A DNA stretch of 63,103 nt from Basidiobolus meristosporus CBS 931.73 (lineage: Eukaryota; Basidiobolomycota; Basidiobolomycetes; Basidiobolales; Basidiobolaceae). Shown here one piece after another: positions 16,178-63,103 of this stretch; the first letter of the stretch is position 1; each line of letters begins with the position of its first letter. The position numbers and the translations under genes are program-made. The stretch lies in contig MCFE01000519.1 of NCBI GenBank assembly GCA_002104905.1, positions 1 to 63,103 of the forward strand. The letters run 5' to 3'. The notes under the pieces were generated by a model. The model was given only the letters and a program-made list of their open reading frames with translations, ran no database searches and was not told the origin of the DNA.

Positions 16178-16654
16178 ATTTTCAGAGCTGTGAAGTGAAG
16201 GTTGGAGCACAGGCAGGTGGGGAGGAAATTCTTGACATTTTGATACTTGTAAAGTGTTGACTCGGTGGAAGGAATTCTTCTCTGATTGCACTGTGTTTCG
16301 TACATTTCTTATGCTGCACCAACTCCAAACTGAGACCCTTTCCTTATAAAATCAAAAACTGGACAATTGATTTGTACCAATTAGTATGAGATCCTGTCAA
16401 TTTCAAATCTTTTAATATCCTGCTATAACAAAATCGCTGATTGATACCATATTGTCTGCTAGCATCCCCATAAATTAAGCCACTTCTCGGATTGAGGTAA
16501 CAATGACTAGGATTGACGCATCACAGCCAGTAGTTACAAGCGTCGGAGTTCTGTCAAAATTATGATTTATTCATCGATGCTTGGATATATGCGTTACAGA
16601 TGCCTTGATTTAAATGCGGAAATAGAGGGATTACTTCTATGTCGGTATATCAAT
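16178..16654. other. intergenic between SHMT copies 2 and 3
   Basis: 477 bp, A/T-rich; upstream region of copy 2 and 3' end of copy 3 (TTTATTCATC near 16565). No other element is seen. Confidence 0.4.
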
Positions 16655-22396: not shown

Positions 22397-24049
22397 TCAG
22401 CAAGCCCCGAGGTCAGTCCAAACATTTTGACTGTTGTTGCCTGGGGTATCATTCTGAGTCCACCACTTGGCTTGCCAGAGGTGTGCCTTGTACACTGCCT
22501 TTTGTGCTCCATTGTACGCGGTGGATGCGTTCCAATCAGCAACGCCGTTGCAAATCCCGGGAACTGAGGTGGGGCTGGGTGATCCAGAGGTAGTGGAAAC
22601 ACTGGAGGTAACAGATGGGACAGTTGAGGTCTTGCTGGTGATGGTCGTGGTTGGTTGCACAGTGGATGTGGGTACTGGTGGAACGCTGGGTGATGGGCAT
22701 CCTGAGCCAGTGCAGCGGACTCCTTGCAGGACGTTGAGAAGCTCGTCGTTGGAGTCATGACTCATATCCCAGTACATCACGCCTCGAAGGCCAGATTGTC
22801 TGGTGTGGTCAACCTTGATCTTGAGTGATTGAGGATCGTCGTAGGAGATGAATCGCTTGTCACTGGCTCTGAACAGCCAGGGGGTCTGGGTGGTGTTGTC
22901 CCAGTAACGACTCCAGCCACTGACGGGGGTGGTGGTGCCGGATTGGAGGATGTCACTGCGGATGGACTTCCACTTCCAGATGCCAGAGTAGAACGTCCCT
23001 TCGTTACAGAACGAGTTGGGCTCATTGGCGTCATACGAGTCACCCTTGGGTGTCACGCTATCCTTCGCAGCATACATGTTGCCGGGGTTGGCATTCATGT
23101 CAACAGTGGCAGTGAGGGAGCGGCCATAGAACGGCACTCCCATGACAAGCTTGTTGGCTGGCCACTTGGCCCCGAGCCAATCATTAATGGACTGGCGGAA
23201 AGAGTAGGCATCACCACCCTTCGCAGTATCGTAGTCGAATGGGGCATTTGGGCCAGTGGTGGCCGACCATGATCCCATGATGTCGTAGGCCATGACATTG
23301 ATGAAGTCAAAGTACTGAGCATACGCTGACACATCAGCCATCGGCTTGCCATCCACACCATCGAATGGCTGAACTCTCACGGCAGCGGTCAGCAGCTTGT
23401 GCTCGTTGGGGAACTCGGCATCAAGGGCGGCTCTGAGCTCCTTGAGGAGGATGAGGTAGTTGGCACTGTCGTTCTTGTCAACGATGTTACAGATGGCCGC
23501 ATTTCTGCCAGGATACTCCCAATCGATGTCAATTCCGTCAAGGTCCCAGCCATCTGGGTTCTCATCGTAGTCGGGCTTTGTGTTCTTGCGCACGAACACA
23601 AGTGCATTGTTGATGAACTTCTTGCGCAATGCTGCATCTCGTACAATGGTGGAGAATGTCTGGCTACCTGTCCAGCCACCCAGTGACATCAGTGTCTTGA
23701 CACCCTTTGCACTGGCAAGCTGCTTCAGCTTGCGGATTCTGGTACCATCGTAGTATCTATCAATAGTGATGGCGGTCGGGTCACTGGTCTTCTTGGTTAG
23801 TACTCCGAAGCCTATTCACAGACAAGCGGTTAGTCAAGGACAGATCAACCGAGAAGTCGTCTAAAACCACTGTTTGGACTGACCATAGTTGATGTGGGTG
23901 ACCTTGTCGAGGCTTAGCTGCTCAGGCTCCACCTTACCCCACGGTACATAGTAGCCAACGACCACCTTGTCGTCTGCAGCCTCAATGGCGAAAGGAGCAA
24001 GCAGTAAGGTGGCAGAGATCGTCGAGATCAAGAAGAGTTTGAGTTTCAT
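22397..24049 (-). CDS. GH18 chitinase with C-terminal chitin-binding module, copy A
   Basis: Exons 24049-23884 and 23811-22397 give 526 aa. Signal peptide at about 1-24, then a GH18 barrel starting KVVVGYYVPWGK; the catalytic motif DGIDIDWEYPG is intact (DxxDxDxE, Glu as acid). Other marks are SLGGWTGS, VMAYDIMG and the end strand GVMYWDMSHDS. A Ser/Thr/Pro linker (PSPSVPPVPTSTVQPTTT) leads to a CBM5/12-type module with ADWNASTAYNGAQKAVYKAH and WQAKWWTQNDTPGNNSQ. The secreted enzyme hydrolyses chitin in cell-wall remodelling, nutrition or attack on chitinous hosts. Intron (72 nt) and N-terminal half match copy B. Confidence 0.93.
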
Positions 24050-24631
24050 TGCAAGCAGTAGATGATGCTTCAGTTGATGAGGACATGAGGACGACCGCTT
24101 GGCTTTATAGTTAAAACGTGGGTAATTCTATTTTGTTACCATTGAATATGGTAAGATCGGCACCAACTCTGGCAAGGAGTAACAAACCAATAAAGCCAAA
24201 TACGGTAGAGGTGTGCAGCTCGTGTAACCCAACAGCCGGGAATCTAAGTTTGAGGAACCCGGACTGTTGCCAAACAAAAGAATAAACTTTGCTGGGTGAA
24301 CTGAAACCGCGGAGGTGCGATCCTCTAGAATATCTATCTGAAAGTAGTATGAATAGCTAGGCGAAATTTTGCTTTGGTGCAGCACTTACTGCCACAGTTA
24401 GCAGCCATCGATTATTTCAAGGCAACTAATTCTCGGTCAAACCACTAAATAAATGAATCTAACTGCTTGGAATAATACCTGATTACAACTATAGTGACTG
24501 TTGCTCAGCAAACATTGGGTTTGAGGGCTATCATCGAAGTACACTGGGAAGCAATCTTTATTTTTCAATATAGCGGCTTCGTAATCAATGTGATATAAAG
24601 CAAAAGTGGTATTGGTGGTAATACTTGGTTA
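24050..24631. other. intergenic between chitinase copies A and B
   Basis: 582 bp: upstream region of copy A and 3' end of copy B. The minus strand has a TATAAAGCC-type element near 24104, about 55 bp before the copy A start. Confidence 0.45.
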
Positions 24632-26284
24632 TCAACAAGCCCCGAGGTGAGTCCAGACATTCTGACTGTTGTTGCCTGGGGTGTCGTTCTGAGTCCACCA
24701 CTTGGCTTGCCAGAGGTGTGCCTTGTACACTGCCTTTTGTGCTCCATTGTACGCGGTGGATGCGTTCCAATCAGCAACGCCGTTGCAAATCCCGGGAACT
24801 GAGGTGGGGCTGGGCGATCCGGAGGTGGTGGTGACACTGGAGGTAGCAGATGGGACAGTTGAGGTCTTGCTGGTGATGGTCGTGGTTGGTTGCACAGTGG
24901 ATGTGGGTACTGGTGGAACGCTGGGTGATGGGCATCCTGAGCCAGTGCAGCGGACTCCTTGCAGGACGTTGAGAAGCTCGTCGTTGGAGTCATGACTCAT
25001 ATCCCAGTACATCACGCCTCGAAGGCCAGATTGTCTGGTGTGGTCAACCTTGATCTTGAGTGATTGAGGATCGTCGTAGGAGATGAATCGCTTGTCACTG
25101 GCTCTGAACAGCCAGGGGGTCTGGGTGGTGTTGTCCCAGTAACGACTCCAGCCACTGACGGGGGTAGTGGTGCCAGATTGGAGGATGTCACTGCGGATGG
25201 ACTTCCACTTCCAGATGCCAGAGTAGAACGTCCCTTCGTTACAGAACGAGTTGGGCTCATTGGCGTCATACGAGTCACCCTTGGGTGTCACACTCTCCTT
25301 CGCAGCATACATGTTGCCGGGGTTGGCATTCATGTCAACAGTGGCAGTGAGGGAGCGGCCATAGAACGGCACTCCCATGACAAGCTTGTTGGCTGGCCAC
25401 TTGGCCCCGAGCCAATCATTGATGGACTGGCGGAAAGAGTAGGCATCACCACCCTTCGCAGTATCATAGTCGAATGGGGCATTTGGGCCAGTGGTGGCTG
25501 ACCATGATCCCATGATGTCGTAGGCCATGACATTGATGAAGTCAAAGTACTGAGCATATGCTGACACATCAGCCATCGGCTTGCCATCCACACCATCGAA
25601 TGGCTGAACTCTCACGGCAGCGGTCAGCAGCTTGTGCTCGTTGGGGAACTCGGCATCGAGGGCGGCTCTGAGCTCCTTGAGGAGGATGAGGTAGTTGGCA
25701 CTATCGTTCTTGTCAACGATGTTACAAATGGCCGCATTTCTGCCAGGATACTCCCAATCAATGTCAATTCCGTCAAGGTCCCAGCCATCTGGGTTCTCAT
25801 CGTAGTCGGGCTTTGTGTTCTTGCGCACGAACACAAGTGCATTGTTGATGAACTTCTTGCGCAATGCTGCATCTCGCACAATGGTGGAGAATGTCTGGCT
25901 ACCTGTCCAGCCACCCAGTGACATCAGTGTCTTGACACCCTTTGCACTGGCAAGCTGCTTCAGCTTGCGGATTCTGGTACCATCGTAGTATCTATCAATA
26001 GTGATGGCAGTCGGGTCACTGGTCTTCTTGGTTAGTACTCCGAAACCTATTCACAGACAAGTGGTTAGTCAAGGACAGATCAACCGAGAAGTCGTCTAAA
26101 ACCACTGTTTGGACTGACCATAGTTGATGTGGGTGACCTTATCGAGGCTTAGCTGCTCAGGCTCTACCTTACCCCACGGTACATAGTAGCCAACGACCAC
26201 CTTGTCGTCTGCAGCCTCAATGGATAAAGGAGCAAGCAGTAAGGTGGCAGAGATCGTCGAGATCAAGAAGAGTTTGAGTTTCAT
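24632..26284 (-). CDS. GH18 chitinase with CBM, copy B
   Basis: Exons 26284-26119 and 26046-24632, 526 aa. Same layout as copy A: signal peptide (MKLKLFLISTISATLLLAPL), GH18 domain with DGIDIDWEYPG, S/T/P linker, CBM5/12-like end. Its first half follows copy A (TSDPTAIT, DYDENPDGW, QSINDWLG). The linker region follows copy D (VPSATSSVTTTSG). The upstream ~50 bp resemble copy A, then diverge. Confidence 0.93.
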
Positions 26285-26778
26285 TGCAAGCAGTAGATGA
26301 TGCTTTGGCTGAGAAGGATTAAGGGCTGGATATATAGGCAGAACGTGAGTAATTGAGGCATCAGGCGAAGACCAATTTAGCATAATTGGAACCAAGTCTA
26401 GTAAGGAGCTGCCAACCAATAAATCCGTATAAGGTGATGTGAAGAAGCCCATGTTGCATCAAAGCCAGGAAATCAGGGAGAGAAAACTGGAAAATTTCCT
26501 GGATGATCATCAGTGATATCTGGAACTCCACCACTTGGAGAGGGATCCTTGCATTTCTAGAACAAATACTTCAGCATGCAATCTTGATCCTAGCCAAATA
26601 CGAATATAGCACAGAGGAACAGTTGTATCTGAGATATTCATACCAAAGAATGGATGTAATTATGCACTTGTAATTTTTACCGATATATCATACATTGAAG
26701 CAATATTGTTGGAAAGGTATGTTTTATTGTTGTCATAGTCAGGGAGAGTAATCAAAAATTGATTCCTGATTCGGAAAT
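26285..26778. other. intergenic between chitinase copies B and C
   Basis: 494 bp. On the minus strand a TATATATCC-like element lies near 26331, about 45 bp before the copy B start. The rest is A/T-rich with no recognised element. Confidence 0.4.
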
Positions 26779-28416
26779 TTAACAGGACCCGAGGTCGTTC
26801 CAGACATTTTGGCTGTTGCTGCCAGGAGTATCATTTTGAGTCCACCACTTGGCTTGCCAGAGGTGTCCCTTATATACTACCTTTTGAGCTGCATTATAAG
26901 CGGTGGCAGCACTCCAATCAGCAACACCACTACAATTTCCGGGAGCTGAGGTGGGGCTGGGCGATCCGGAGGTGGTGGTGGCACTGGAGGTAGCAGATGG
27001 GACAGTTGAGGTCTTGCTGGTGATGGTCGTGGTTGGTTGCACAGTGGATGTGGGTACTGGTGGAACGCTGGGTGATGGGCATCCTGAGCCAGTGCAGCGG
27101 ACTCCTTGCAGGACGTTGAGAAGCTCGTCGTTGGAGTCATGACTCATATCCCAGTACATCACGCCCCGAAGGCCAGATTGTCTGGTGTGGTCAACCTTGA
27201 TCTTGAGTGATTGAGGATCGTCGTAAGAGATGAATCGCTTGTCACTGGCTCTGAACAACCAGGGGGTCTGGGTGGTGTTGTCCCAGTAACGACTCCAGCC
27301 ACTGACGGGGGTAGTGGTGCCAGATTGGAGGATGTCACTGCGGATGGACTTCCACTTCCAGATGCCAGAGTAGAACGTCCCTTCGTTACAGAACGAGTTG
27401 GGCTCATTGGCGTCATACGAGTCACCCTTGGGTGTCACGCTATCCTTCGCAGCATACATGTTGCCGGGGTTGGCATTCATGTCAACAGTGGCAGTGAGGG
27501 AGCGGCCATAGAACGGCACTCCCATGACAAGCTTGTTGGCTGGCCACTTGGCTCCGAGCCAATCATTAATGGCTTGACGGAAAGAGTAGGCATCACCACC
27601 CTTCGCAGTATCATAGTCGAATGGGGCATTTGGGCCAGTGGTGGCCGACCATGATCCCATGATGTCGTAGGCCATGACATTGATGAAGTCAAAGTACTGA
27701 GCATACGCTGACACATCAGCCATCGGCTTGCCATCCACACCATCGAATGGCTGAACTCTCACGGCAGCGGTCAGCAGCTTGTGCTCGTTGGGGAACTCGG
27801 CATCGAGGGCTGCTCTGAGCTCCTTGAGGAGGATGAGGTAGTTGGCACTATCGTTCTTGTCAACGATGTTACAAATGGCCGCATTTCTGCCAGGATACTC
27901 CCAATCGATGTCAATTCCGTCAAGGTCCCAGCCATCTGGATTAGCATCGTAGTCGGGCTTTGTGTTCTTGCGCACGAACACAAGTGCATTGTTGATGAAC
28001 TTCTTGCGCAATGCTGCATCTCGTACAATGGTGGAGAATGTCTGGCTACCTGTCCAGCCACCCAGTGACATCAGTGTCTTGACACCCTTTGCACTGGCAA
28101 GCTGCTTCAGCTTGCGGATTCTGTTGCCATCGTAGTATCTATCAATAGTAATCTCGGTGGGATCAGCAGTTTTCTTGGTCAACACACCAAAACCTTGAAA
28201 GAAATTAGCATAAGCGCCTCAATGCATTTGCAACATTCGCGGATACTAACCATAGTTGATATGGGTGACTTTGTCCAAGCTTAGCTGCTCAGGCTCCACC
28301 TTACCCCATGGGACGTAGTAGCCAACAACCACCTTGTCATCAGCTGCTGAACCCTCCAAAGGAGCAAAGAGTATAGCGGCGGAGATAGTCGAGAGCACAA
28401 GGATGTTGAGTTTCAT
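26779..28416 (-). CDS. GH18 chitinase with divergent CBM, copy C
   Basis: Exons 28416-28251 and 28193-26779, 526 aa. The signal peptide differs (MKLNILVLSTISAAILFAPL) and the intron (57 nt) is of another type, shared only with copy D. The first third of the catalytic domain carries the C/D markers (TADPTEIT, DYDANPDGW, QAINDWLG), while the later part is nearly identical to all copies. The CBM is the odd one: NCSGVADWSAATAYNAAQKV and a NVWNDLGSC end, with several substitutions absent from A, B and D. The catalytic DxxDxDxE motif is intact. Confidence 0.93.
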
Positions 28417-29095
28417 TGCGATACTATCGAAGTATTTGAGTTGATGCACTACTTCATTACTGAGGAAGTATATTTATACCAATTGGTGAAATACCAATTT
28501 TTATTAAGTCGCCAGTAATCTAACCAGTTTCTGAACATACATAGTGATAATTGCTAGTTACCAGGCCGTTTGTAGTTACACTTGACTCGTGATAGCGGAG
28601 TTGCGGTCATCCTTACCAAATTAGTTCTAATCGAGCTTTGATTTGCCCGTAGCATACTGATTAATGCTGAATATACTTTGCTCACTGTGAAGACCCAGCT
28701 ACTTTACTTGAAAGGAATGTTATCGGTTAGAAAATCTAGATATGGTATCTCACTATGGTTCAGGGGCTTTACGCAATAATGGTCTCCGGCATTTCCGAGA
28801 GCCTATTTTGGTATGCAAATTTCGTTTATTGAATGCATAGAACACTTTTGATGCAGTCCATAAGGTAGTGCTTTCTGAACATCAGACAAAGTATGGCGAA
28901 GTTGGTAATTTCCCACAAGCGGTGCCGTAGGAGGTAAAAGTATGTTTACGCATGCTAATTTTCCTGGAGACTACTGGAAACGGTAAGGATGAGTGTTTAA
29001 TCATCAAGGTGGATACTAGGAGAGGTAACTATCTGACCATTCAAACAACCAAAACAGTATCAAAAGAATTGTTTATTCAGATTCCCACATGCTAA
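28417..29095. other. intergenic between chitinase copies C and D
   Basis: 679 bp. TATTTATACC (28471-28480; minus strand GGTATAAATA) is a TATA box for copy C. The remainder has no recognised element. Confidence 0.45.
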
Positions 29096-30733
29096 TTAAC
29101 AAGCACCGAGATCGGTCCAGACATTTTGGCTATTGCTACCAGGGGTATCATTCTGAGTCCACCACTTGGCTTGCCAGAGGTGTGCCTTGTACACTGCCTT
29201 TTGCGCTCCATTGTACGCGGTGGATGCGTTCCAATCAGCAACGCCGTTGCAAATCCCGGGAACTGAGGTGGGGCTGGGCGATCCGGAGGTGGTGGTGACA
29301 CTGGAGGTAGCAGATGGGACAGTTGAGGTCTTGCTGGTGATGGTCGTGGTTGGTTGCACAGTGGATGTGGGTACTGGTGGAACGCTGGGTGATGGGCATC
29401 CTGAGCCAGTGCAGCGGACTCCTTGCAGGACGTTGAGAAGCTCGTCGTTGGAGTCATGACTCATATCCCAGTACATCACGCCTCGAAGGCCAGATTGTCT
29501 GGTGTGGTCAACCTTGATCTTGAGTGATTGAGGATCGTCGTAGGAGATGAATCGCTTGTCACTGGCTCTGAACAGCCAGGGGGTCTGGGTGGTGTTGTCC
29601 CAGTAACGACTCCAGCCACTGACGGGGGTAGTGGTGCCAGATTGGAGGATGTCACTGCGGATGGACTTCCACTTCCAGATGCCAGAGTAGAACGTCCCTT
29701 CGTTACAGAACGAGTTGGGCTCATTGGCGTCATACGAGTCACCCTTGGGTGTCACGCTATCCTTCGCAGCATACATGTTGCCGGGGTTGGCATTCATGTC
29801 AACAGTGGCAGTGAGGGAGCGGCCATAGAACGGCACTCCCATGACAAGCTTGTTGGCTGGCCACTTGGCTCCGAGCCAATCATTAATGGCTTGACGGAAA
29901 GAGTAGGCATCACCACCCTTCGCAGTATCATAGTCGAATGGGGCATTTGGGCCAGTGGTGGCTGACCATGATCCCATGATGTCGTAGGCCATGACATTGA
30001 TGAAGTCAAAGTACTGAGCATACGCTGACACATCAGCCATCGGCTTGCCATCCACACCATCGAATGGCTGAACTCTCACGGCAGCGGTCAGCAGCTTGTG
30101 CTCGTTGGGGAACTCGGCATCAAGGGCGGCTCTGAGCTCCTTGAGGAGGATGAGGTAGTTGGCACTGTCGTTCTTGTCAACGATGTTACAAATGGCCGCA
30201 TTTCTGCCAGGATACTCCCAATCGATGTCGATTCCGTCAAGGTCCCAGCCATCTGGATTAGCATCGTAGTCGGGCTTTGTGTTCTTGCGCACGAACACAA
30301 GTGCATTGTTGATGAACTTCTTGCGCAATGCTGCATCTCGTACAATGGTGGAGAATGTCTGGCTACCTGTCCAGCCACCCAGTGACATCAGTGTCTTGAC
30401 ACCCTTTGCACTGGCAAGCTGCTTCAGCTTGCGGATTCTGTTGCCATCGTAGTATCTATCAATAGTAATCTCGGTGGGATCAGCAGTTTTCTTGGTCAAC
30501 ACACCAAAACCTTGAAAGAAATTAGCATAAGCGCCTCAATGCATTTGCAACATTCGCGGATACTAACCATAGTTGATATGGGTGACTTTGTCCAAGCTTA
30601 GCTGCTCAGGCTCCACCTTACCCCATGGGACGTAGTAGCCAACAACCACCTTGTCATCAGCTGCTGAACCCTCCAAAGGAGCAAAGAGTATTGCGGCAGA
30701 GATGGTTGAGAGCAGAAGGATATTAATCTTCAT
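29096..30733 (-). CDS. GH18 chitinase with CBM, copy D
   Basis: Exons 30733-30568 and 30510-29096, 526 aa, the outermost and first of the array in transcription order. The signal peptide is MKINILLLSTISAAILFAPL. The 57-nt intron looks identical to copy C's and the N-terminal half follows copy C, but the linker and CBM follow copies A and B (CNGVADWNASTAYNGAQK, NVWTDLGAC). So this copy is a mosaic of the two groups. The active-site motif is intact. A TATAAAAGG element on the minus strand lies near 30781-30789, about 50 bp before the start. Confidence 0.93.
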
Positions 30734-49280: not shown

Positions 49281-50335
49281 TATATCACTGGCAAACGTTT
49301 TATTCCACGCTACATTTCGAATCAATACAATCGATACATTGGCTTTTCATCTGCGGTCTGGCGTTCAGAGATGATCGGAAACGAGACGGAAGTCAAGTGC
49401 GCATAGCAACCACTTTGCAGAATGGTGGGCTCCAAATGCAAGGCTGAGTGGCGGAGACCTTGTAGGCGGAATAATCGGCTTAACGGTGAGGCTTTTGGAG
49501 AGTGGAAAGTAGTACAATGTTCATCAGTTGACAGCCGTCCTTTTATACAGCATTCTTCGGTATTGATTTATCCACTCTTTACATATTGCGTAATGAGCTA
49601 CCGGATCCATACACCAGGGTACTGGCTGGCAGTATTCCGGTGGTACTTCGGAGTCAGTCACTTCACTCCAAGCATCTCGAGCCATTTCTAATCTCGCAAT
49701 CTTCCCTATTTGGACTAGTGACTGTGTAGTATTAATTCCAGATTAAGCGGTATCAAATCCGCGAGAATGTACCTTGGTCCACAAAAGGTCATAGATAGTC
49801 TATTTGTTGCATACTATCTAATACTAGAATACACCGGTGCCCCATTGACAGAATGAGCGTACCTTACCTAACGGGCAAATTAGACCCTGGCCTCAAGGAG
49901 TGTCTGTGATTGGACCTACTTGTCCGCCAAATTCAGATGCCTTCGATCTATACAGAACATTTCAAAGAATATGACTTGCCCTCGTTAAATTACACTTGTC
50001 CTCACGCAAGGGGACAGATAGTAACTGAAGAAGTATATTTTTGGCGTGATCAGGTAAGTAGATAGGTGATAGTAACCATTTTTATGGATATACCGGATTC
50101 GAATTTAGGAGCACAACAACAGGGCTAGATGGAATGTGCGACCCGTAAAATCTCCGTAAATTTTCTGACAGACCTGGAACTCGGCTTCGGAAAATATGAT
50201 TTGATATTGTTAAGTATAAAGACAACAACAACCAATACTTCAAAAAATTCGTGTGATAATTCCACTATTCGGGATCTAAGCGTATGCTCTTAATTAAATC
50301 AATGATCGTTTGATATTACGCTTTGTTGCTGCCAA
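49281..50335. repeat. subtelomeric repeat, type 1 unit, copy R1
   Basis: Most complete copy of a ~1.05-kb unit. Its left part holds, on the minus strand, GTATAAAAGG (about 49548-49539), an ATG at 49524, a 14-codon frame starting MNIVLLST, and AATAAA (49303-49298). That gives a possible short transcript of about 250 nt. The right part contains TCAGTCACTTCACTCCAAGC and a GGGACAGATAGTAACTGAAG word that recur in other copies. No long conserved frame exists, so coding is unproven. Confidence 0.75.
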
Positions 50336-51110
50336 ATCCCTAATATTACGCTTTGTTGCCAATTCTCTACCCAGGAGTTACTGGTGCGAGTATTCCAGCA
50401 GTACTTCAGAGGTTTTCACCTCACTCCAAGCATCTTGAGCCACTCCATTCTCACAATCTTTCCTTAATTGGGACAGTAGCTATGGACGGTTGGCAGCAGA
50501 TTTAGCCGCATCAAATCCCGGAAAACATACCTTTGCCCCAAACAATCGTAGATTATCCGTTTTTTGAGTACTATGTAATACAAGATTGTGCTGGGGCCGC
50601 GTTGATGTGTATACGGCTTAACGATAAAAACCAAAGGAGGGTTTGAAGATATATGAGCAAGAAATAAACGCTGTGGAAGCGTCCAGCTGTTTCGATTTAT
50701 CAGATTTGGGATATCAAAGATCCTAATTGGTAGAGCCTGACATGACTATTAAGATAGAGATTAGTAGAATGTGCAGGACCTGGATTTCGCTCTGGCTGAT
50801 GTTAAGAATTAAAAAGTAAAAACCAATGTTTTTGAAACATGGAGGGTGTATTCCACTGTTCTATATCGAGCCGTTTGGTCGAGCCGTTTGGTTCTCTGAT
50901 TAGACATTATTTTTATTATTACAGAGTCATCAAAAGTTGGTTGGATTCACTGCCATACCGTAAGCCATTAATCGGGGTCACTGTTGACATTTTTAGTATA
51001 GTGAAAAAATGAATTATCACCAGGACGTAAAAACTCTTTTTTACTTCCTATGCTTTTGACCCATATTCAAGCACTGGCTTAGTATGTGCCAGTACCCTCA
51101 ACAAGCAAAA
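50336..51110. repeat. subtelomeric repeat, type 2 unit, copy 1
   Basis: Starts with a diverged form of the TTCACTCCAAGCATCT block, then CTTTCCTTAATTGGGACAGT and GGGGCCGCGTTGATGTG. The same order recurs at 56475-57320. Together with R1 it forms a ~1.85-kb higher-order unit. Confidence 0.7.
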
Positions 51111-51139
51111 TACAAAAATATCATCGGTATGCTTTTTAT

Positions 51140-52340
51140 TCCGTTTCACAATTCTCATCAATACAATCGATACATTGGCTTTTCATCTGCGGTCTGGCGT
51201 TCAGAGATGATCGGAAACGAGACGGAAGTCAAGTGCGCATAGCAACCACTTTGCAGAATGGTGAGCTCCAGATGCAAGGCTGAGTGGCGGAGACCTTGTA
51301 GGCGGAATAATCGGCTTAACGGTGAGGCTTTTGGAGAGTGGAAAGTAGTACAATGTTCATCATTTGACAGCCGTCCTTTTATACAGCATTCTTCGGTATT
51401 GATTTATCCACTCTTTACATATTGCGTAATGAGCTGCCGGATCCATACACCAGGGTACTGGCTGGCAGTATTCCGGTGGTACTTCGGAGTCAGTCACTTC
51501 ACTCCAAGCATCTCGAGCCATTTCTAATTCTCGCAATCTTCCCTACTTTGAACCAGTAACTGTGTAGCATTGATTCCGGATTAAGCCGCATCAACCCCGG
51601 GAGAATATACCTTGGGCCATGCACAGCCGTAGATAATCCATTCGTCGCGTACTACCTAACATAAGAATATACCGGTGCCTCATCGATGGGAACATGTGCT
51701 GGCTTCGACGAAAATATCAAAACATCTATGATTCTCAACCAAACCTGGTAGCTGGAGATTAATACAGAACACTGCCAAGTGCAAGACTCATATTTAAATC
51801 AGATCTAGCCTCCCAAATGGTGCTGATAATAACTAAAGGAGAATTTGAGGACATAGGTGCAAAAAACTCACGCAGTGGATATACCACATTTGGGATATCA
51901 AGATCACCACCAAAACTCCTAGTTAGTAGAGACTGACATGTCAACCACGACGATAGAGACTAATGGAATGTGCGATTTGGCCTCCAGAACGGTGTGGCAA
52001 TGGTTGATATTACGAATTAAAAGAAAAGACCAATGTTTTTAAAACTTGAAGCGTGAATACCATTGTTCTATATCGAGCCGTTTTGTTCCATGATTACATA
52101 TTATTTCATATGGCTTTAGCAACATACGAAGGTTGCCATACCGTAAACCAATTATCTAGCATATGGATGATATTGTAAATAAGTGATTTGTCTGAGAATA
52201 TAAAAACACTTTGTTCATGGAAAACCAAATTCTCGCTGTTTTCTGTTGTATCGATTTCTTTCCATCCCGTGGATCCAAGTTGAAGAATGTAGCTAGGGAC
52301 TTTCCATCCTCAGACTTTAGCTTAGTATGTCCCAGCTCGT
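51140..52340. repeat. type 1 unit copy R2 with attached type 2-like part
   Basis: 51160-51620 is almost identical to 49318-49780 by eye (a handful of differences), including the minus-strand TATA, ATG and leader. From about 51820 it carries the AACTAAAGGAGAATTTGAGG block of the type 2 unit. It is the most recent duplicate in the block. Confidence 0.75.
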
Positions 52341-52364
52341 TCAATAAACAAAATACAAAAATAT

Positions 52365-53240
52365 CACTGGTAAACGTTTTATTCCGTGTTACATTTCGAA
52401 TCATCTACGGCCCGGTGTTCAGAGATATTCTGACATGTATCCGGAAGTCAAGTGAGCATAGCAACTCCTTTGCAGAATGGTGCAAGGCTGGGTAGCGGAG
52501 ACCCTGTAGGCGGAATATTCGGCTTAACGGTGAGGCTTTTGGAGAGTGGAAAGTAGTACAAGGATCATGTATTTGACAGCCGTCTTTTTATACTGCATTC
52601 TTCGGTATTGATTTATCCACCCTTGACATGTTGCATCATAGGCTGCCGGATCTATACTGCAGGATTGTTGTACTCAGCACTCCAGTGGTACTTTGGAGTC
52701 AGTCACTTCACTCCAAGCATCTCGAGCCATTTCTATTTTCGCAATCTTCCCTATTTGCACTAGTTACCGTGTGGTGTTGAGTCCAGATTAAGCGGCATCA
52801 AATCCGGGAGAATATACCATGGCCCACAAAAGGTCATAGATAGTCTATTTGTTGCATACTATCTAATACTAGAATATACCTATGTTATGGTTAAATTAGA
52901 CCCAGGCTTCAGAGGCCATTTGTGATTGGACCTACTTGTCCGCCGAATTCAGATGCCTTCGATCTATACAGAACATTTCAAAAAATAAGACTTGCTCTCC
53001 CACAAAGGTACAGATAGTAGCTGTAGAAGTATATTAGGTACAGATAGTAGCTGTAGAAGTATATTTATAGCTTGATCTGGTAAGTAGATTGGTGATAGAC
53101 GCCCACACTACGGAAAGGAACTAGATAGAATGTGCGGTCCGGTTAGTTTTCTGCCAGACCTAGAACTCGGCTTCGGAGAATAAGATTTAGAATTAAACAG
53201 AAATGCTAATGCTTTTGAAACTTGGAAAGTGAGTTCCATT
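52365..53240. repeat. type 1 unit copy R3
   Basis: Same order as R1 with more changes: TATAAAAA (minus strand, near 52590), an ATG in the same place (frame MILVLLST), and AATAAA near 52380. It contains an internal 29-bp tandem duplication, GGTACAGATAGTAGCTGTAG at 53008 and again at 53037. Confidence 0.7.
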
Positions 53241-53499
53241 GCTCTATATCAAACCGCCTGGATCAAATACTACTTCATATGGCTTGAGCAATATACAGAG
53301 TCTCCTAAAGTGCACACGTAAACAATAATCTGATGAAGAAATATATCGTGGAAATGTATTCTTCGGAGGAGGTAATAGCATGTAGCTAGTGGGGAATCAA
53401 ATTTGTTGTTTCTGTGAGATCGATTCTTCCATGCGTGGACCAAGCAAGAATTTAGCACTTGACTCTCGAACTTTAGCTTCGTATGTGCAGTAAGTTCAT

Positions 53500-54140
53500 A
53501 ACAAATATCACTGTTAACATTTATTCCGCGTTACATTTCGATCAGTACAGTGATTATATGATCATCATCTACGCCAGTGTCAGAGATATCTGACTGAATC
53601 GAAGTCAAGTAGCATAGCAACCCTTTGCGAATGGTGAGCACAGACACAATGTTGGGTGCGGAGACTGTAGCGGATATCGCTAGCGTGAGGCTTTGGAAGT
53701 GGAAGTATACATGTTGTCAGCAACACTCTCTTTATAGTGCATGTATGGCAAGAATGATCAACCTTGCATGTGGCATCATGGGATGAAAATCTTCGTTCCG
53801 GGGTTCTGGCCAAAGACCTTTTAGCGGCACTGTAGAGTCGGTAGCTGCACTGCTTTGTAGAATATCTACACTCACAGAACGGTATTGATAGTACCAGAAT
53901 AAGCATTTTGCTTTATAATCCGTATCTGCGGATTGTTGAGACAAACCAATACTATGAGGTGTCCATATTCTCCGATCCATCATATTTGGTATATCAAGGT
54001 TACCATGGAAATACCCGATTTGACTTGATTATGATGGTAATTGCCAAGATTAGAATAGAAGGTATGTGCGGCCCCTCCAATTATTGAAGGAATAAGAATT
54101 CATCCTCCAAAAATAAGATTTGGCCATCGCTGATGATAGC
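53500..54140. repeat. type 1 unit copy R4, strongly decayed
   Basis: Recognisable words (CACCATTCGCAAAGGGTTGC and TATAAAGAGAG on the minus strand) remain, but with many single-base losses relative to other copies. Confidence 0.55.
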
Positions 54141-55454
54141 TGTGGAGAAAATAGCAATCTTCTTGGGCTTGGCATGCGAATTCCATTATTCTGAATCTAG
54201 GCATCGCAATCCCCAATTAAATCATTAATCGTTCGATTGTATATCCCTTTTAAGCACTAGGTAGTTGCACTTGCATCCATGTTGTCAGTTTCACAACAAT
54301 AATATTGATTATGGTGGATATTCCTGCTTTGAATAGCAAACCTCTCAAGATATCAGAGAGCACCTGGTAAATCCTTCTCTTTGTGCAAACCTGGACTTCA
54401 AAACCACCATCGTGCAACCCATAAAAATTGTTTCAAAGCCGCATTATTATTCCCTGCTGTGTTTTGTTCATTGGAATATTTTTGGGTATTCAGACAAACA
54501 AAAAGAGCACATTTCTGCAGGCATCATTGGTGTTCAGCTTACGTCATGTTAGCGGTTGCTCTACTGCAGTTCGTTGCTAATAGATTGCTACAAAAAAGCT
54601 TTGTCAATTGTTTTTATAGCAGTGAAAGTGTCGGGAACTTGTCAATCTTAACATTGTCAACCTCCATCTAGCCCTCCATTCTCTCCGCCTATGGACCTTG
54701 TGCACATGGCCCTAAAATAGCATATCTGACGGAGTATCTAGAATATTCAAAGATCCTTGATATCCTTTATTTGTATAAACGAAACTGTATCAAGATTGTT
54801 CCTTGGTCATACCCATGGAATATTTATTAAAGACTACTATCTCCCTCCACCTGTGTCTCAGATTTGTATCTTGTATTGGCAACAAGCAGGTTAATACAGT
54901 GAGTACTCCTCAGTGATAGCAACCGTATCAGTATCGCAACTATATGTCAACAGCCTTGTCTTTCTACGAAATTAAGCACACTGATTTACAATTGGTGGAC
55001 TACATAGCAACTGGCGGTACATTGCAGAGTTCTTATAACCTCGTGAGGTTTTATCTAAAAATGTAGATTTCCAAGTCTCGGTACTGCCAACGAGGTTAAT
55101 AATTGTTTGCTACTCCAAATCCTGGTTTATTAATGTTGTATATATTTAGTTTACACATAAAACACAACATACAGAGTCGTTCAGAAATCAACTATTGGCT
55201 GGATTCACTGTTATACCATAAACCAATAATCGGGTAAACGGGTGATACAAAACTGCGTATTTTCAATATGGTGGCAATAAAATTTTCTGTGGACGTAAAA
55301 ATACGTTGTTAATGGCACACTAAACTGTCGTTGGTTTCAGTGGGTCCAATTTTTCCCCTTGTCTTTGGCTCAAGCTCAGGAGTCTATCGAGGGACTTTTC
55401 ATCCGCAAACTTTAGTTTAGAATATGCCAGTACGCCCAATAAACAAAATACAAA
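54141..55454. other. A/T-rich region between repeat copies
   Basis: 1.3 kb with no gene recognised; a 96-aa frame at 54381-54671 has no family features. From about 55090 fragments of the type 2 tail recur (ACCATAAACCAATAATCGGG). Confidence 0.35.
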
Positions 55455-56450
55455 ATATCACTGGTAAGCGTTTTATTCCGTGTTACATTTCTTATCAATA
55501 CAACGATTATATTGACTCATCATCTACAGCCCGGTGTTCAGAGATATTCTGACATGAGTCGCAAGTCAAGGGAGCATAGCAACCACTTTGCGGAATGGCG
55601 AACTCCAGATACAAGGCTGAGTAGTGAAGACTTAGTAGGCGGAAAAATCGGCTTAACGGCGAGGCTGTTGGAAAGTGGAAAGTAGTACAATGTTCATCAG
55701 TTGACAGCCTTCCTTTTATATGGTTTTCCGGTGGTACTTGGGAGTCGGTCACTTCACTCCAAGCATCTTAAGCCATTTTCATTTCCGCAATCTTCCCTAA
55801 TTTGGACCAGAAACTGTGTAGTGTTGATTCCAGACTAAGCTGCTTCAACTCCGGGAGAATGTACCTTGGCCCACAAAAAGCCATAGATAGTCCATCTGCT
55901 GTATTCTATTTTACACTAGAATATATCGATGCCCCATTGATAGAATGAGCGCACCTTAGTAACGGGCAAGCTAGACCCTGGCATCAAGGAAAAATGGAAA
56001 TACTATTTGTGATTGGACTAACTTGTCTGCTAAATTCAGATGTTTTTGATCTATACAGAACATTTCACAGAATATGACTTGCCGTCATTAAATTAAACTT
56101 GTCCTCACGCAAGGGGACAGATGGTACCTGAAGAAGTGAATTTGTGGCATGATCAGGTAAATAGATAGGCGATAGAAGCCTTTACTATGGCAGTGTCCTT
56201 TTTTGTGGATATAACGGACTTAATATATCAAGAATGAAAAATATACATCCTTCACAAAGATCAACAATGGGGCTAGATGAAGTGTGCGGCCCATTAGTTT
56301 TCTGCCAGACCTGGAACCTGGCTTGGGAAATATGATTTGATTATGCATGATGTTAGGTACAAAGACAACAACCAATAACTTAACCGATTTGAGTGATAAT
56401 TCCACTATTCAGAGTCTAAGCGTAATGCTCTTAATTGAAGCAATGATAGG
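55455..56450. repeat. type 1 unit copy R5
   Basis: Same order as R1, including AATAAA (minus strand, near 55475), ATG near 55703 and the CTCACGCAAGGGGACAGATG block near 56104. A ~45-bp stretch between the TATA region and GGTGGTACTTGGGAGTCGGT is deleted. Confidence 0.7.
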
Positions 56451-57330
56451 TTGATGATATGCTTTGTTGCTGCCAAATCGCCTCTCAGGTGTTACAACTG
56501 AGAGTATTCCAGTAGTACCTCAGAGTTTGTCACTTCACTCCAAGCATCTTGAGCCATCTCCATTTTCACAATCTTTCCTTAATTGGGACAGTGGCTATGG
56601 AGTGTTGGCTGCAGATTTAGCCTCATCAAATCCCGGAGAATATATATCAGCCCCCAAACAGCCTAGATTATGCGCTTGTTGAGTACTCTATAATACAAGA
56701 CTATGTCGGGGCCGCGTTGATGTGTACACGGTGCACTGATAATAACTAAAGGAGGATTTGAAGACATAGGAGCAAGAAATAACCGCTGTGGAATTGTCCA
56801 GCTGATTAGATATACCAGATTTGGGATATTAAGATTAGCACCAACGACCCTAGTTAATAGAGATCGACATGTCAACCACCAAGATGAGGATTAATGGAAT
56901 GTGCTGTGCGGTAGTTCGTTGAAGGACCTGGATTTGGCCAGGACTGATATTAAGAATTACAAAGAAAAGACCAATGTTTTTATAACGGGGGCTGTGTATT
57001 CCACTGTTCTATATGATATGGCTTTAGCAACATACAACCTTGTGCTGAAACCACCTAAAATCACCTGTTGATTGGACTCACCACCATGCCATAAACCAAT
57101 AATCAGGCACACGGGTGATAGGAAATTGCGTATTTTCAATATAATGGCAATGAATGATACAGCGTAAGAACTCAATGTCAATGAAAAACAAACTCACGTT
57201 GTTTTCTGGGAGACCAATTGCTTCTCATGCTTTTGATCCAGATTCAAACATCAAGCAAGGTACTTTCAATTCTGAGACGTTGGCTTAGTATGTGCCAGTA
57301 CGTTCAATAAACAGAATACAAATATCACAA
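56451..57330. repeat. type 2 unit, copy 2
   Basis: Matches 50336-51110 in order and sequence words (CTTTCCTTAATTGGGACAGT, GGGGCCGCGTTGATGTG), so 55455-57330 is a second copy of the higher-order unit at 49281-51110. Confidence 0.7.
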
Positions 57331-57520
57331 TTAAACTTTTTATTCTGTTACGTTTCTCATCATCTACGGCCTGGTGTTCAGTGTTAATCTGTCATGAATT
57401 CGAAGTCAAGTAAGCATGGCTACCACTTTGCAGGATGGTGAGCTCCAGATGCAAGGTTGAGTAGCGGAGACCTTGTAGACGGAATATTCGGCCTAACAGT
57501 GAGGCCTAATATTTGGACTA
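57331..57520. repeat. type 1 unit copy R6, truncated
   Basis: Begins like other type 1 units (CATCTACGGCCTGGTGTTCA) but stops after the GGCCTAACAGTGAGGCC word, where unique sequence of the cysteine-rich gene begins. Confidence 0.6.
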
Positions 57521-57601
57521 TCTAGACATAGGCAGTTTATTAACATTCACTCGAACTCAAAGCTACAAGCATGCAATGGAAAATGGTGCTGCAAAATAAA
57601 C

Positions 57602-59407: not shown

Positions 59408-59658
59408 TGACCAAATTCCTTGTCAGGATCTACTTAGAATATTTATCCAGAACATCAAGATTAGATAAGTAGTCCAAGCAGCCCCAGACTTTGTACATAT
59501 GTTCTTGGGACATTCCTTAATCTGTTCTACATGTTTTTAGCGCCATGACCATGTAAAAGTATAAATACTACTTTAACATTCAATAAATTATTAAGTGAAA
59601 ACCACATAATCTACTTGCACTCCCAATCACTTCCAATATCTCCAAGACTCTTACAACA
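59408..59658 (+). repeat. LTR of a Copia-type element
   Basis: 251 bp beginning TGACCAAATT and ending CTTACAACA, so with the usual TG...CA termini. It contains GTATAAATAC (TATA-like) and TTCAATAAATT (poly(A) signal) in LTR order and is directly followed by a primer-binding site. Confidence 0.6.
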
Positions 59659-59670
59659 GGTTATGAGCCC
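59659..59670 (+). other. primer-binding site, half-tRNA-iMet type
   Basis: GGTTATGAGCCC immediately after the LTR. It is complementary to GGGCTCATAACC, the anticodon-stem region of a Met tRNA (CAT anticodon). Drosophila copia uses such an internal half of initiator tRNA-Met as primer, and its site begins GGTTATGGGCCC. Confidence 0.55.
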
Positions 59671-59795
59671 CAAGCTGTCACTCTCTGCAATGTCTACTAC
59701 TGCTATTACTGGAATTTTTCCCTCTGCTGAAAAGTTGGATGGATCTAACTAACAAGTGTGGAAGGTGAAGATTAAGATGCTGCTACAGGAAAGGT
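59663..59795 (+). pseudogene. start of a Copia-type gag, truncated and with a stop
   Basis: From the ATG at 59663 the frame reads MSPKLSLSAMSTTAITGIFP and then KLDGSN, a TAA stop (59750-59752), and QVWKVKIKMLLQ. The words LDGSNYxxWKxxIKxLL are the usual start of Copia gag (UBN2/DUF4219 region), so the TAA replaces the Tyr codon. The element is cut off at about 59795 by the non-LTR array. Confidence 0.65.
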
Positions 59796-60129
59796 TTAGG
59801 GGGAGGGAAAGTCACCAAGGTAGATGAAATCTTTATTTGATTTCAGACAAGTCTAACTACAAATAAAGAAGCCAGCTAGGAATAGAAGATTCCCAAAGTA
59901 AACACTAAGTTGAATATAAATAAATCCATGCTAAAGTTAAGGCAGTATCCCAGAATACACTGGAGTTCAGGTTCATGGGAGAGTGAAGTAGATAAGCTTG
60001 AGAGATATAATAATCCTTGAGGAAGTGGGTAACAGCAGGTGAAGGGGAGTTTTTGATAGGTGAAGTGAATCTTGAGAGCAGAGATTCCTCTAATGAGAAG
60101 GTCTTGTAAACTGGAGAATCAGGAAGCTC
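59796..60129 (-). mobile_element. 5'-truncated non-LTR retrotransposon copy (3' end only), segment 1
   Basis: Begins at TTTAGGGGGAGGG and carries the conserved 3' box (plus strand): GTCACC at 59811, GATGAAATCTTTATTTG, then AATAAAGAAGCC. No coding part remains. Orientation is 3' end left, toward the centromere. Confidence 0.65.
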
Positions 60130-60299
60130 TTTTAGGGAGGGAAAGTCACCAAGTTGATGAAATCTTTATTTGAGTTAAGAACCAATCTAAGTACAAATAA
60201 AGAAGCCAATTAAGAGGTCTAGAACCTCTCTAATAAGTAATCTAACTTATGTTTTGTTTCATCTCTAATGTTTGTTTCAATAAAGTAAAGCTCATCAGG
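60130..60299 (-). mobile_element. 5'-truncated non-LTR copy, segment 2
   Basis: Starts TTTTAGGGAGGG, then GTCACC at 60145, GATGAAATCTTTATTTG and AATAAAGAAGCC. About 170 bp long. A perfect hairpin GAGGT-CTAGA-ACCTC lies just after the box. Confidence 0.62.
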
Positions 60300-60379
60300 G
60301 GTTAGGGGGGGATGATCATCACCAAAGGGTGAAATCTTTATTTAAATAATAAATAAAGAAGCCAAGTTTGAATATGAAG
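60300..60379 (-). mobile_element. 5'-truncated non-LTR copy, segment 3 (about 80 bp)
   Basis: Starts GGTTAGGGGGGG, then TCACCAAAGGGTGAAATCTT and AATAAAGAAGCC, and ends where a new TTTAGGGTTAGGG begins. Confidence 0.6.
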
Positions 60380-60630
60380 GGTTTAGGGTTAGGGGGGGAG
60401 ACAGTCACCAACAGGTGAAATCTTTATTTCAGTTGAAACAAAGAAGCCAGCGCTACTGTTGTAGCTTTGATACAAGAGTGTGTAGCTGAGGGGAATTTGT
60501 AGGTAAGTTAATAAGAAGTGATGATAGTTCTTCAGTGCTCAAGACACTGTTCAGTGGGAAGGGGGGTAGCAAGAGAGGTAAGAATGACTTGTGAACAACA
60601 TTAATGAGGGGAATGTGATAAGGGTTGATT
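60380..60630 (-). mobile_element. 5'-truncated non-LTR copy, segment 4
   Basis: Follows TTTAGGGTTAGGGGGGG. Its ~230 bp (60400-60626) are nearly identical to the 3' end of segment 5 (60641-60868), including the last codons and 3' UTR. So it is the same element family, cut at 5' after about 230 bp. Confidence 0.75.
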
Positions 60631-62750
60631 TAGGGGGGGGAGACAGTCACCAACAGGTGAAATCTTTATTTCAGTTGAAACAAAGAAGCCAGCGCTACTG
60701 TTGTAGCTTTGATACAAGAGTGTGTAGCTGAGGGGAATTTGTAGGTAAGTTAATAAGAAGTGATGATAGTTCTTCAGTGCTCAAGACACTGTTCAGTGGG
60801 AAGGGGGGTAGCAAGAGAGGTAAGAATGACTTGTGAACAACATTAATGAGGGGAATGTGATAAGGATTGATATTCATCATAAAGGGAGTATGCTGCTGCA
60901 GATATTGCTGCCAAAGGTCTGTCAAGTACTTCAGGTAGGCCAGCTTGGGTTTTTCTGACTGCAGAATATAGTGAGCAAACTTCTTGACTTCAGGATCTCC
61001 AAGTATAGTTCTCCAGCAGGAGCCAGGTGTTGTGTGGTGTGTTCTCTTCCAGGCCTTAATCAGTGGGTTGTTGCAGTTGTGAAGTCTGAGGTATAATCTG
61101 GTTCTAAGGTAGAGAAGTCTGATCTTATAGGGCATAAACCCAAAAGCACCAAGAATAGCATGTCTGTAGGGGCATTCAGGCAAATGAGGCACCAAGGAGG
61201 TAATGCACCATACTGCAAACTTGTCAAGCTTAGTGCAGTCTCTAGAAGTAAGAGAGAGAAGTGGTAAGCCAAATTCCAGGACAGGGAAGACAAACTGCTT
61301 GAGTAGAAGGAGGCAGCTGGGAGCTGAAGTTGTAGGAGGAGTAACAGCCAGTAGCTTGTGGAGTGCCTGTCTTGCCAGGATAATTCTCTTCTTCAGGTGT
61401 GCTCCAGAGTCTAATCCAGTAGGAAGGAAAGGAAAGCCAAGATATGTAGCAGAAACCTGAGCAGGTAGAGTGGAGTTCTCCAAGTTGATGGGAGAGCCCA
61501 AAGGTACTGTCTTTGCAATGGAAAGCTGGAGATTATTCTTCTGCAGATACTGGTGGATGGTCTGGGAGTCTTGTTGCACATTGGAGGAGGATATTCTGAT
61601 GTCATCAGCAAAGAGAGTAACCAGGCAGTCAGCTGAGAGTCTTGGGAAATCATTCAGGAAGATGGCAAACAGTATAGGACCAAGCACAGAGCCTTGAACC
61701 ACTCCATTAGGAACTGAGAACACAGCTGATTGCTCACTTGGGTGCAGAATTCTTGCTTGTGGATCCAGAAACAGAGACCTGACAAGGAGGGTGAGAGAGG
61801 TACTGGAGAAGCATTGCAACTTGGACCAAAGCAGATTTCTGTCAACTGAATCAAAGGCCTTAGTAACATCAAACAGAACAGAGGGATACTTGCACTGGAG
61901 AGAGTGATCTTGGCTAAGTATGACTGCATATTCCAAGGAGAGGCCAGGAACAAAGCCAAACTGTGCAGGATGAAACTTGAGGGAGTCAGAGTAGAGCTCC
62001 TGAGCAAGCAGAAGCTCAAACACCTTTCTGCAGGTGGGCAGCAGAGATATTGGCCTGTAGGAGCTAGGATCCAGGTGCTTTCCTTTACCCTTGTACAGTG
62101 GCAGAACATTTGCAAAGGACCATTCCTCAGGAGTAGAAAGCTGGGCTGAGCATTGCTGAAACAGTGGAAGCAGAAGTGCAGACATGGCCTTGGCACTAGT
62201 CTTCAGAAGCTCATAGGAGATTGTGTCCACACCTGGAGCAGTAGAGTTGGGAAGCCTCTTGAGCACATTATGGATTCTCCTTTGATCAAGTGCAAGTGGT
62301 ATGGGCAGAGTCTTGAAGTCAGGATGAAAGCCAGGAGTTGAGTACTGCTTTGTAGAGAAGAAGATGTTAGCCAGCTGTTCTGTTGAAGGTAACTTCCTGG
62401 AAGAGGGCCTCATTGCCCTGTAGAGTCTTGATACTGTTCTTGTTATAGAGTTGGAAGATTGCAGTGGCAAAGAACTCATAATATGATCCCAGAGCTGAGT
62501 ATGCAGAGTGTGGTGAATTGCCTTGGAGTGGTGTATTGCTGTCAGGAGGAGTTTCTCTGTTTTTGGGTTAGGGAAGCTCAGGTAGCTTTGTTGCAGGGCT
62601 GAAACAATGGATTCCCATTTTCTTGAGGTAACAGCAGTAGTCTTGCATGGCAGTGAGAGGGAGGCAGACACCAGAATCAGATGCTTCACAAAGAGCCAGG
62701 CAAAGTTGAGATCATCTGGCAGAGAAAGTAGCAAACTGGCAAGCTTCAAG
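60631..62750 (-). mobile_element. non-LTR retrotransposon copy with reverse transcriptase, 5'-truncated (segment 5)
   Basis: The longest copy, 2.1 kb: 3' end at TTTAGGGGGGGG (60630-60638), 5' end cut at about 62750, where the 3' box of segment 6 begins. It encodes the RT domain and C-terminal extension, but no endonuclease domain remains. The 3' UTR is short: the stop at 60695 lies about 60 nt from the G/C-run. Confidence 0.8.
60695..62750 (-). CDS. reverse transcriptase of a non-LTR element (N-terminus missing)
   Basis: Open for about 685 codons. The first few codons of the frame (62770-62751) belong to the neighbouring copy's 3' tail, so the true N-terminus is lost. RT motifs in order, numbered from the frame start: NSTAPGVDTISYELL (175-189), SYRPISLLPTCRKVFE (237-252), FDVTKAFDSV with catalytic Asp (301), GVVQGSVLGPILF (356-368), and LFADDIRI with the FADD box (387-390). 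A long C-terminal region with no clear RNase H ends TLVSKLQQ. No stop or frameshift is seen, so the copy is young. A CCHC knuckle is not evident. Confidence 0.85.
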
Positions 62751-62928
62751 TAGGGGAGGAAAGTCACCAAGTGGTGAAATCTTTATTTACTTATGACAAG
62801 TATCTAAAGAAGCCAAGTTAATCTGAAGTTATTCCTAGAAAGCTAGGTCTGAGAGATATCTTCCTGGTAAGCCAGGTCTGAGAGTTGAGAAGCTGAGTGG
62901 TACTATATTTCCTAGTTAGCTAGGTCTG
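62751..62928 (-). mobile_element. outermost 5'-truncated non-LTR copy, segment 6
   Basis: Starts TAGGGGAGG with TCACCAAGTGGTGAAATCTT and AAAGAAGCC, as in the other copies, then about 110 bp holding three small hairpins, and passes directly into telomere repeats. Confidence 0.6.
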
Positions 62929-62930
62929 AG
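62832..62930. repeat. three hairpin repeats next to the telomere
   Basis: Perfect 5-bp stems with 4-nt loops: CCTAG-AAAG-CTAGG (62834-62847), CCTGG-TAAG-CCAGG (62863-62876) and CCTAG-TTAG-CTAGG (62911-62924). Each is preceded by TT and followed by TCTGAG. The middle stem has A-T replaced by G-C on both sides, so pairing is kept. Confidence 0.65.
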
Positions 62931-63103
62931 GGTTAGGGTTAGGGTTAGGTAGTTAGGGTTAGGGTTAGGGTTAGGGTTAGGGTTAGGGTTAGGGTTAGGG
63001 TTAGGGTTAGGGTTAGGGTTAGGGTTAGGGTTAGGGTTAGGGTTAGGGTTAGGGTTAGGGTTAGGGTTAGGGTTAGGGTTAGGGTTAGGTTAGGTAGGGT
63101 TAG
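62929..63103 (+). repeat. telomere, (TTAGGG)n
   Basis: About 28 TTAGGG units running 5' to 3' to the end of the window, with one irregular unit (TTAGGTAG near 62945) and a few near the tip (TTAGGTTAGGTAGGG). The orientation means the right end of the window is the physical chromosome end. Confidence 0.97.

Follow-up and report, generated by a model that had tools for sequence, protein, structure and literature searches.

Tail-inward telomeric arrays of LINE, gag-only and SINE families with a common 3' box in the fungus Basidiobolus meristosporus

The contig MCFE01000519.1 of Basidiobolus meristosporus CBS 931.73 (63,103 nucleotides, hereafter the window; contig C779 of an assembly of 89.0 Mb in 1311 contigs) ends in a TTAGGG telomere, and next to it lies a head-to-tail array of six 5'-truncated retrotransposon copies. 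We found that the copies belong to five families, namely two long interspersed nuclear elements (LINE-A and LINE-B, families A and E), two elements that carry only a gag-like first open reading frame (ORF1; families C and D), and a short interspersed nuclear element (SINE, family B), and that these families have a 3' box in common and recur at chromosome ends throughout the genome with their 3' ends inward. The reading that we lean towards, based on sequence comparison, is that the five families form a group with shared machinery, that they may be primed on the 3' overhang of the chromosome, and that telomerase would cap the products.

Alignment to reference copies placed the array at 59795-62933, with the inner-to-outer order C, E, D, A, A, B, followed by TTAGGG to 63103 (Table 1). 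An earlier note on this DNA, made from the letters alone, had described six head-to-tail copies in one orientation with 3' ends inward, each starting at a telomere-like G-rich word, with the minus strand as RNA sense and the outermost copy abutting the telomere. All six copies and all six words were recovered, the alignment agreed with the strand for every copy, and the outermost copy proved to be the SINE. The note had also taken all copies for elements lacking long terminal repeats (non-LTR); they are not all LINEs, since only three are LINE copies (A, A and E), two come from gag-only relatives (C and D) and one is a SINE (B). Related 3' boxes were aligned at the ends of the five array copies other than the LINE-A copy at 60398..60629. 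In the first 57 kb of the window, none of the 212 runs of at least four G on either strand was preceded by TTA, whereas at least three telomere-phase bases stood left of the G-run in 62 of 77 mapped copies. These 77 copies come from 28 stretches totalling 157 kb, which with few exceptions were chosen for boxes or for reverse transcriptase (RT), endonuclease or gag matches. The window array is far above chance. Two simpler descriptions were rejected: that the array represents one LINE only, since the alignment gave five families, and that copies 4 and 5 are a 242-bp tandem duplication, since there are two LINE-A 3' ends and the stubs and G-runs differ.

Table 1. Features of the terminal array in the window
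Feature	Position	Strand	Basis or remark
Telomere-like stub TTTAGGGG, first junction	59795..59802	+	word found in sequence; reference alignment
Family C copy (ORF1/gag-only element), 5' truncated	59803..60132	-	330 nt of 1389-nt reference; longer copies L061, L062
Family E copy (LINE-B 3' end), 5' truncated, 166 nt	60137..60302	-	aligned to reference; LINE-B in L059/L060
Family D copy (second gag-only-like element), 5' truncated, 68 nt	60311..60378	-	aligned to reference
Stub: two telomere-like units and G-run	60379..60397	+	reference alignment
LINE-A 3' box: two predicted hairpins, then C-run (RNA sense)	60392..60466	-	folding, alignment
Family A copy (LINE-A), 5' truncated, 232 nt	60398..60629	-	aligned to reference
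Family A copy (LINE-A), 5' truncated, 2114 nt	60640..62753	-	aligned to reference
695-codon open frame with RVT_1; upstream end crosses junction into next copy's tail	60698..62782	-	
Family B copy (SINE), 5' truncated, 178 nt of 521; abuts telomere directly	62756..62933	-	
Terminal TTAGGG tract	62929..63103	+	sequence scan

The same arrangement was detected genome-wide. Orientation was counted on contigs of at least 60 kb, with 18 contig sizes known and the others, which are the majority, interpolated. The 3' end pointed inward from the nearest contig end in 298 of the 299 matches listed (RT, 47/48; SINE, 44/44; ORF1, 107/107; gag, 100/100), although these are not 299 independent elements, because the probes overlap on the same element and the listing covers the best candidates alone. 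The median distance to the contig end was near 1.2-2.4 kb; these values are rough, as the error for C424 shows (335 kb by interpolation, 312.6 kb in fact). A gag match at C558:98156 was scored as pointing to the nearest end, yet it lies 98 kb from that end. When contigs were chosen by telomere alone, boxes were present in all 11 that fall within C1-C77 among the telomere matches listed (C1, C2, C21, C22, C25, C36, C40, C47, C58, C62 and C77); the single box listed for C58 lies some 8 kb away from its telomere. Telomere tracts gave 7428 forward and 81 reverse matches, and because of this skew we place most telomeres at contig right ends, a bias that probably comes from the assembler. In 9 of 14 telomeric ends that were fetched, a mapped copy directly abutted the telomere, as the earlier note had anticipated; at the C726 end a tail-only piece lies between mapped copy and telomere, and at the C1005 end LINE-A ORF1 sequence reaches the telomere, the 3' end of that copy being outside the fetched stretch.

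The box common to families A-E, SINE included, consists of a hairpin, a second hairpin of the form TCACC-loop-GGTGA, pyrimidines and a C-run, so that the SINE has a 3' tail in common with a LINE of the same genome. The exact 16-base box GGTGAAATCTTTATTT had 1705 genome matches (1555 forward and 150 reverse), and its reversed control had none. LINE-A tails numbered 602 forward and 43 reverse, and TTAGGG stood at most 8 nt upstream in 85 of the first 100 listed, mostly as TTA plus 5 to 11 G, in line with the earlier note's expectation that one box would follow a telomeric stub at chromosome ends. Single-sequence folding gave both hairpins in the A, B, C and E copies of the window, and family D folded otherwise. 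Across 18 tails the two helices were paired in 95.6% of cells, compared with at most 51% when slid.

The reference copy of LINE-A (4557 nt, in L058) carries ORF1 (523 codons) and ORF2 (922 codons) in the same frame, separated by a single TGA stop that is followed by CTA; for families A, C, D and E, full length means the length of a single reference copy. TGACTA was found at the ORF1/ORF2 border in 10 of 10 LINE-A junctions listed and in the one LINE-B junction found, and roughly half of the residues of LINE-B ORF1 are identical (53%). The whole ORF2 protein would most simply be made by UGA readthrough, because the first Met in LINE-A ORF2 is at residue 142 or later, past the GDLN motif at 125. 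The UGA-CUA context favours readthrough, and we infer that an ORF1-ORF2 fusion may be produced in this way. Among nine likely host frames that were checked, two end in TGA. In families C and D an ORF1-like open frame lies directly above the 3' box and RT is absent; the frame is 271 codons long in family C and about 290 in family D, where its upstream limit is undefined, and the 5' part of family C in L061 is a 101-nt tandem repeat. The SINE is 521 nt long, its exact 5' end was seen in eight copies, and it has an RNA polymerase III (pol III)-type B box, GGTTCAAATCC; an A box was recognized by eye only, the scripted A-box pattern giving none. ARAGORN detected no credible tRNA in the SINE, and Rfam searches gave one chance-like match only on four ends and nothing informative on L053.

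The elements are predicted to encode a LINE-type reverse transcriptase: RVT_1 matched LINE-A with an E value of 3e-25, and the best sequence match in PDB was LINE-1 ORF2p. RT copies reach 99% identity among the 64 candidates scored out of 1580. Protein searches yielded five relatives at 47-79% identity (ENA/lgn sources), all others being at 36% or below among the best 8000 candidates scored. An apurinic/apyrimidinic endonuclease (APE)-type domain, PF14529, precedes RT in ORF2; the match is weak (E 2e-4, 21.6 bits, under the cut-off of 27.4), and the motifs are present. PF14529 matched weakly at 21 places in the genome, and the seven that were fetched are LINE-A. The sole place above the cut-off is a different element (L045; C439:109639, + strand, E 6.5e-11), about 17 kb from the end of a contig of 127292 bases. 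In the endonuclease alignment, the Asn, GDxN and SDH motifs are conserved in the family members that cover those sites. The catalytic Glu of the second motif is replaced by Asp in all four family sequences that reach the site (LINE-A, LINE-B and two metagenome relatives), whereas all 27 outgroup sequences with a residue at this position have Glu. The domain is thus retained yet altered as a trait of the clade, and it is less conserved than RT (39% versus 54% identity to LINE-B). Downstream of RT, Pfam gave a chance-level match only, no dedicated restriction-like endonuclease model having been run. The earlier note had likened the array to endonuclease-less terminal elements; we reject that identity, since the endonuclease domain of full-length ORF2 is there and is of the APE type. 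The genome is also predicted to encode a telomerase RNA-binding domain, for which two matches above the cut-off were obtained in C880 and none in 14 control genomes, a weak control because those named are prokaryotes.

The junctions bear most directly on how the arrays arise. The stub plus G-run on the inner side of each copy had a median of 9 nt and was at most 20 nt long in 72 of 77 copies (longest, 44), compared with terminal TTAGGG tracts of roughly 144-246 bp in the 14 ends. A 5' end was visible in 67 copies and fell into 58 distinct pairs of family and end point; the repeated ones were the full-length SINE end (eight copies), A110 (two) and C197 (two). Some copies consist of the tail alone, with lengths of 21 and 41 nt. 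In a strict set of 18 truncated ends with at least seven bases in clear phase, the 5' end matched the telomere phase by a mean of 2.0 nt, with 1-4 nt in 17 of 18, compared with 0.77 in simulations (P=0.0002); a single event may underlie the two A110 ends (C2 and C484), and another the two C197 ends. A looser set (n=38) gave a mean of 2.03 with nine zeros. Telomere-phase seeds are also reported for the fungal element MoTeR (17 of 23; PMC7367193).

We infer the following course of events. The chromosome end would be the insertion site for all five families, LINE-A and LINE-B providing the protein machinery and the two gag-only elements and the SINE borrowing it through the shared 3' box. The 3' end of the RNA, with its two hairpins and a C-run ending like CCCUAA, would be bound by ORF2p and paired to the G-rich telomeric 3' strand, whose 3'-OH could then prime reverse transcription. 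Because the sense RNA corresponds to the C strand, with a 3' C-run that complements the G strand, the first cDNA strand would lengthen the G strand towards the tip. Copying would frequently end early, leaving a 5' truncation, and telomerase, most likely, would seed fresh TTAGGG on the cDNA end by means of 1-4 matching bases. Repeated rounds would pile up elements tail-inward with about one repeat between them. The shortness of the stubs agrees with addition to ends that were almost bare.

The principal alternative, which we regard as possible though not probable, is that ORF2p nicks the G strand within double-stranded telomere and copies the RNA there, after which the distal telomere is rejoined and long inner stubs later break and shrink. 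The APE-type domain has been kept, with N, GDxN and SDH intact where covered, so a nick is possible, and SART1 provides a precedent for an AP-like endonuclease combined with telomere targeting (PMC7265360). The catalytic Glu, on the other hand, is Asp in every family sequence that reaches it, and the short stubs argue against nicking because nicking at random positions of a 150-250-bp tract would leave numerous repeats behind. This last argument is itself open to a reply, since interstitial tracts of at least three repeats break in MoTeR arrays (PMC7367193) and short stubs would therefore fit the loss of longer ones too. Because overhang priming and nicking both count towards it, we consider it very probable that retrotransposition, in one way or the other, directs the elements to telomeres. 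That the arrays grow chiefly through break-induced replication or unequal subtelomere exchange seems improbable: the 5' end points are mostly distinct, G-run lengths vary by junction, the tails are intact, and the families are mixed in varying orders. Recombination nevertheless also acts, because C2 and C484 have one boundary and one point of truncation in common; tandem repetition is seen for some SINE units, and MoTeR arrays behave likewise (PMC7367193). It is very improbable that the arrays are an artefact of assembly, or that they arose by random insertion of the ordinary kind and just look terminal. Such a reading could draw on the near restriction of telomere tracts to contig right ends and on an internal array at C558, but the same type of junction recurs in many separate contigs with differing neighbours and every telomeric contig listed has boxes.

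Besides the kept endonuclease domain, the possible loss of longer stubs and the C2/C484 boundary, several observations weigh against overhang priming at the telomere. Three of the 14 ends (C1, C23 and C1024) have other sequence next to the telomere or lack a mapped copy in that place; C726 carries three inverted copies within its terminal array; and C558, a contig of 218 kb, has an internal array of five mapped copies at about 95-100 kb, which is partly decayed and adjoins a polyprotein frame of LTR type (identified by eye). Two-sided change in the hairpin pairs was not above column shuffles in the 18 tails (131 of 500 shuffles reached it), and neither was the pairing figure of 95.6%. Internal copies with target-site duplications (which could not be told apart within telomeric repeats), or copies in either orientation relative to the telomere, had been put forward in the earlier note as a sign of ordinary insertion; inverted and internal copies occur as exceptions at C726 and C558. 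Most of these exceptional copies keep telomere-like stubs, and they may be rearranged ends or misjoins. A bolder extension of overhang priming, which we consider unlikely, is that two end-maintenance systems operate at once, telomerase and a LINE/gag-only/SINE consortium priming on the G overhang, that the clade-wide Glu-to-Asp change turned the APE domain to non-cutting docking on ends, and that the pol III SINE serves as end material, a step toward a Drosophila-like telomere.

Other features of the window and of related contig ends were recorded. GC skew was +0.30 across 60001-63000, against a range from -0.13 up to +0.13 for the remaining 3-kb steps; telomeric elements with strand-biased G have been described (PMC10088271). 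Adjoining the inner side of the array is a broken frame (59549-59795) with the peptide SPKLSLSAMSTTAITGIFPSAEKLDGSN, which also opens a long frame in L041 that is Copia-like by eye. Inserts starting TGTTGTA come after several array copies. Farther inward are three near-identical SHMT-like frames in tandem (12723-18181) and four near-identical chitinase-like frames in tandem (22397-30535), both named by eye, and diverged repeats of many families (50000-57600) with GC below that of the first 30 kb. A frame at L044 5455-6729 has a helicase-like motif, DSMGLGKT, and has KNFGVYLATV in common with a frame at L043 2932-4260, at a different contig end.

The fungal telomeric LINEs MoTeR, FoTeR and Cnl1 are CRE-type in the parts of the literature available, in contrast to the APE-type element described here; telomere targeting thus seems to have arisen independently, by an APE-type element in an early-diverging fungus with a telomerase domain. 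Autonomous LINEs, gag-only elements and a SINE occur together at the telomeres of one genome, which makes this fungus a natural case for testing how chromosome ends are taken over by retrotransposons and whether doing so requires an endonuclease. The arrays suggest that its chromosome tips are built both by reverse-copied elements and by telomerase. Judged by the listed titles and openings of abstracts, no paper on Basidiobolus telomeric elements or on a telomeric SINE was found, and the available part of PMC4700185 contains nothing on SINEs at telomeres.

The comparison with TRAS/SART and HeT-A concerns targeting, strand and direction, and domains, not RT-clade assignment. TRAS also has an AP-like endonuclease domain, the Drosophila telomere elements include a gag-only element beside RT-bearing ones, and Penelope-like elements belong to a different RT class. 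The closest fungal parallels are MoTeR1 and MoTeR2 of Pyricularia oryzae and FoTeR of Fusarium oxysporum, which are telomeric in hosts with TERT (PMC7367193, PMC8381367, PMC12857005). In MoTeR, the 5' end is always nearest the tip and 5' truncations have telomere-phase seeds, and the second element, MoTeR2, has its 3' end in common with MoTeR1 (PMC7367193, PMC8381367, PMC12857005). Unlike the elements described here, with an APE-type domain before RT, MoTeR and FoTeR are of the CRE clade with a restriction-like endonuclease (PMC12857005); here, moreover, UGA-CUA links ORF1 to ORF2, and two gag-only elements and a SINE are among the partners. Cnl1 of Cryptococcus neoformans forms chromosome-end arrays with telomeric repeats on the outer side and truncated insertions (PMC12810828), but is an R2-superfamily/CRE-like element with a single ORF (PMC12810828, PMC12857005). 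TRAS of Bombyx (R1 clade; PMC10088271) is telomere-specific and inserted in the CCTAA strand, the same choice of strand as here (PMC7265360), and SART1 has two ORFs with an AP-like endonuclease and RT but ends in poly(A) (PMC7265360), whereas a C-run follows two hairpins here and no poly(A) was present in the junctions listed. Athena and other endonuclease-deficient Penelope-like elements are telomere-associated (PMC10088271, PMC3846280), in contrast to a LINE RT with an APE-type domain. HeT-A, TART and TAHRE of Drosophila form head-to-tail arrays with their 3' (poly-A) ends towards the centromere (PMC10088271). The HeT-A/TART geometry invoked in the earlier note was borne out in orientation and telomere attachment genome-wide, but the likeness to endonuclease-less elements was not, given the APE-type domain; Drosophila is, in addition, a telomerase exception (PMC5537684), whereas a TERT domain, TTAGGG caps, a SINE partner and listed junctions free of poly(A) were found here. 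The B. meristosporus elements are telomere-directed like MoTeR, TRAS or HeT-A, but they are neither CRE-type nor endonuclease-less.

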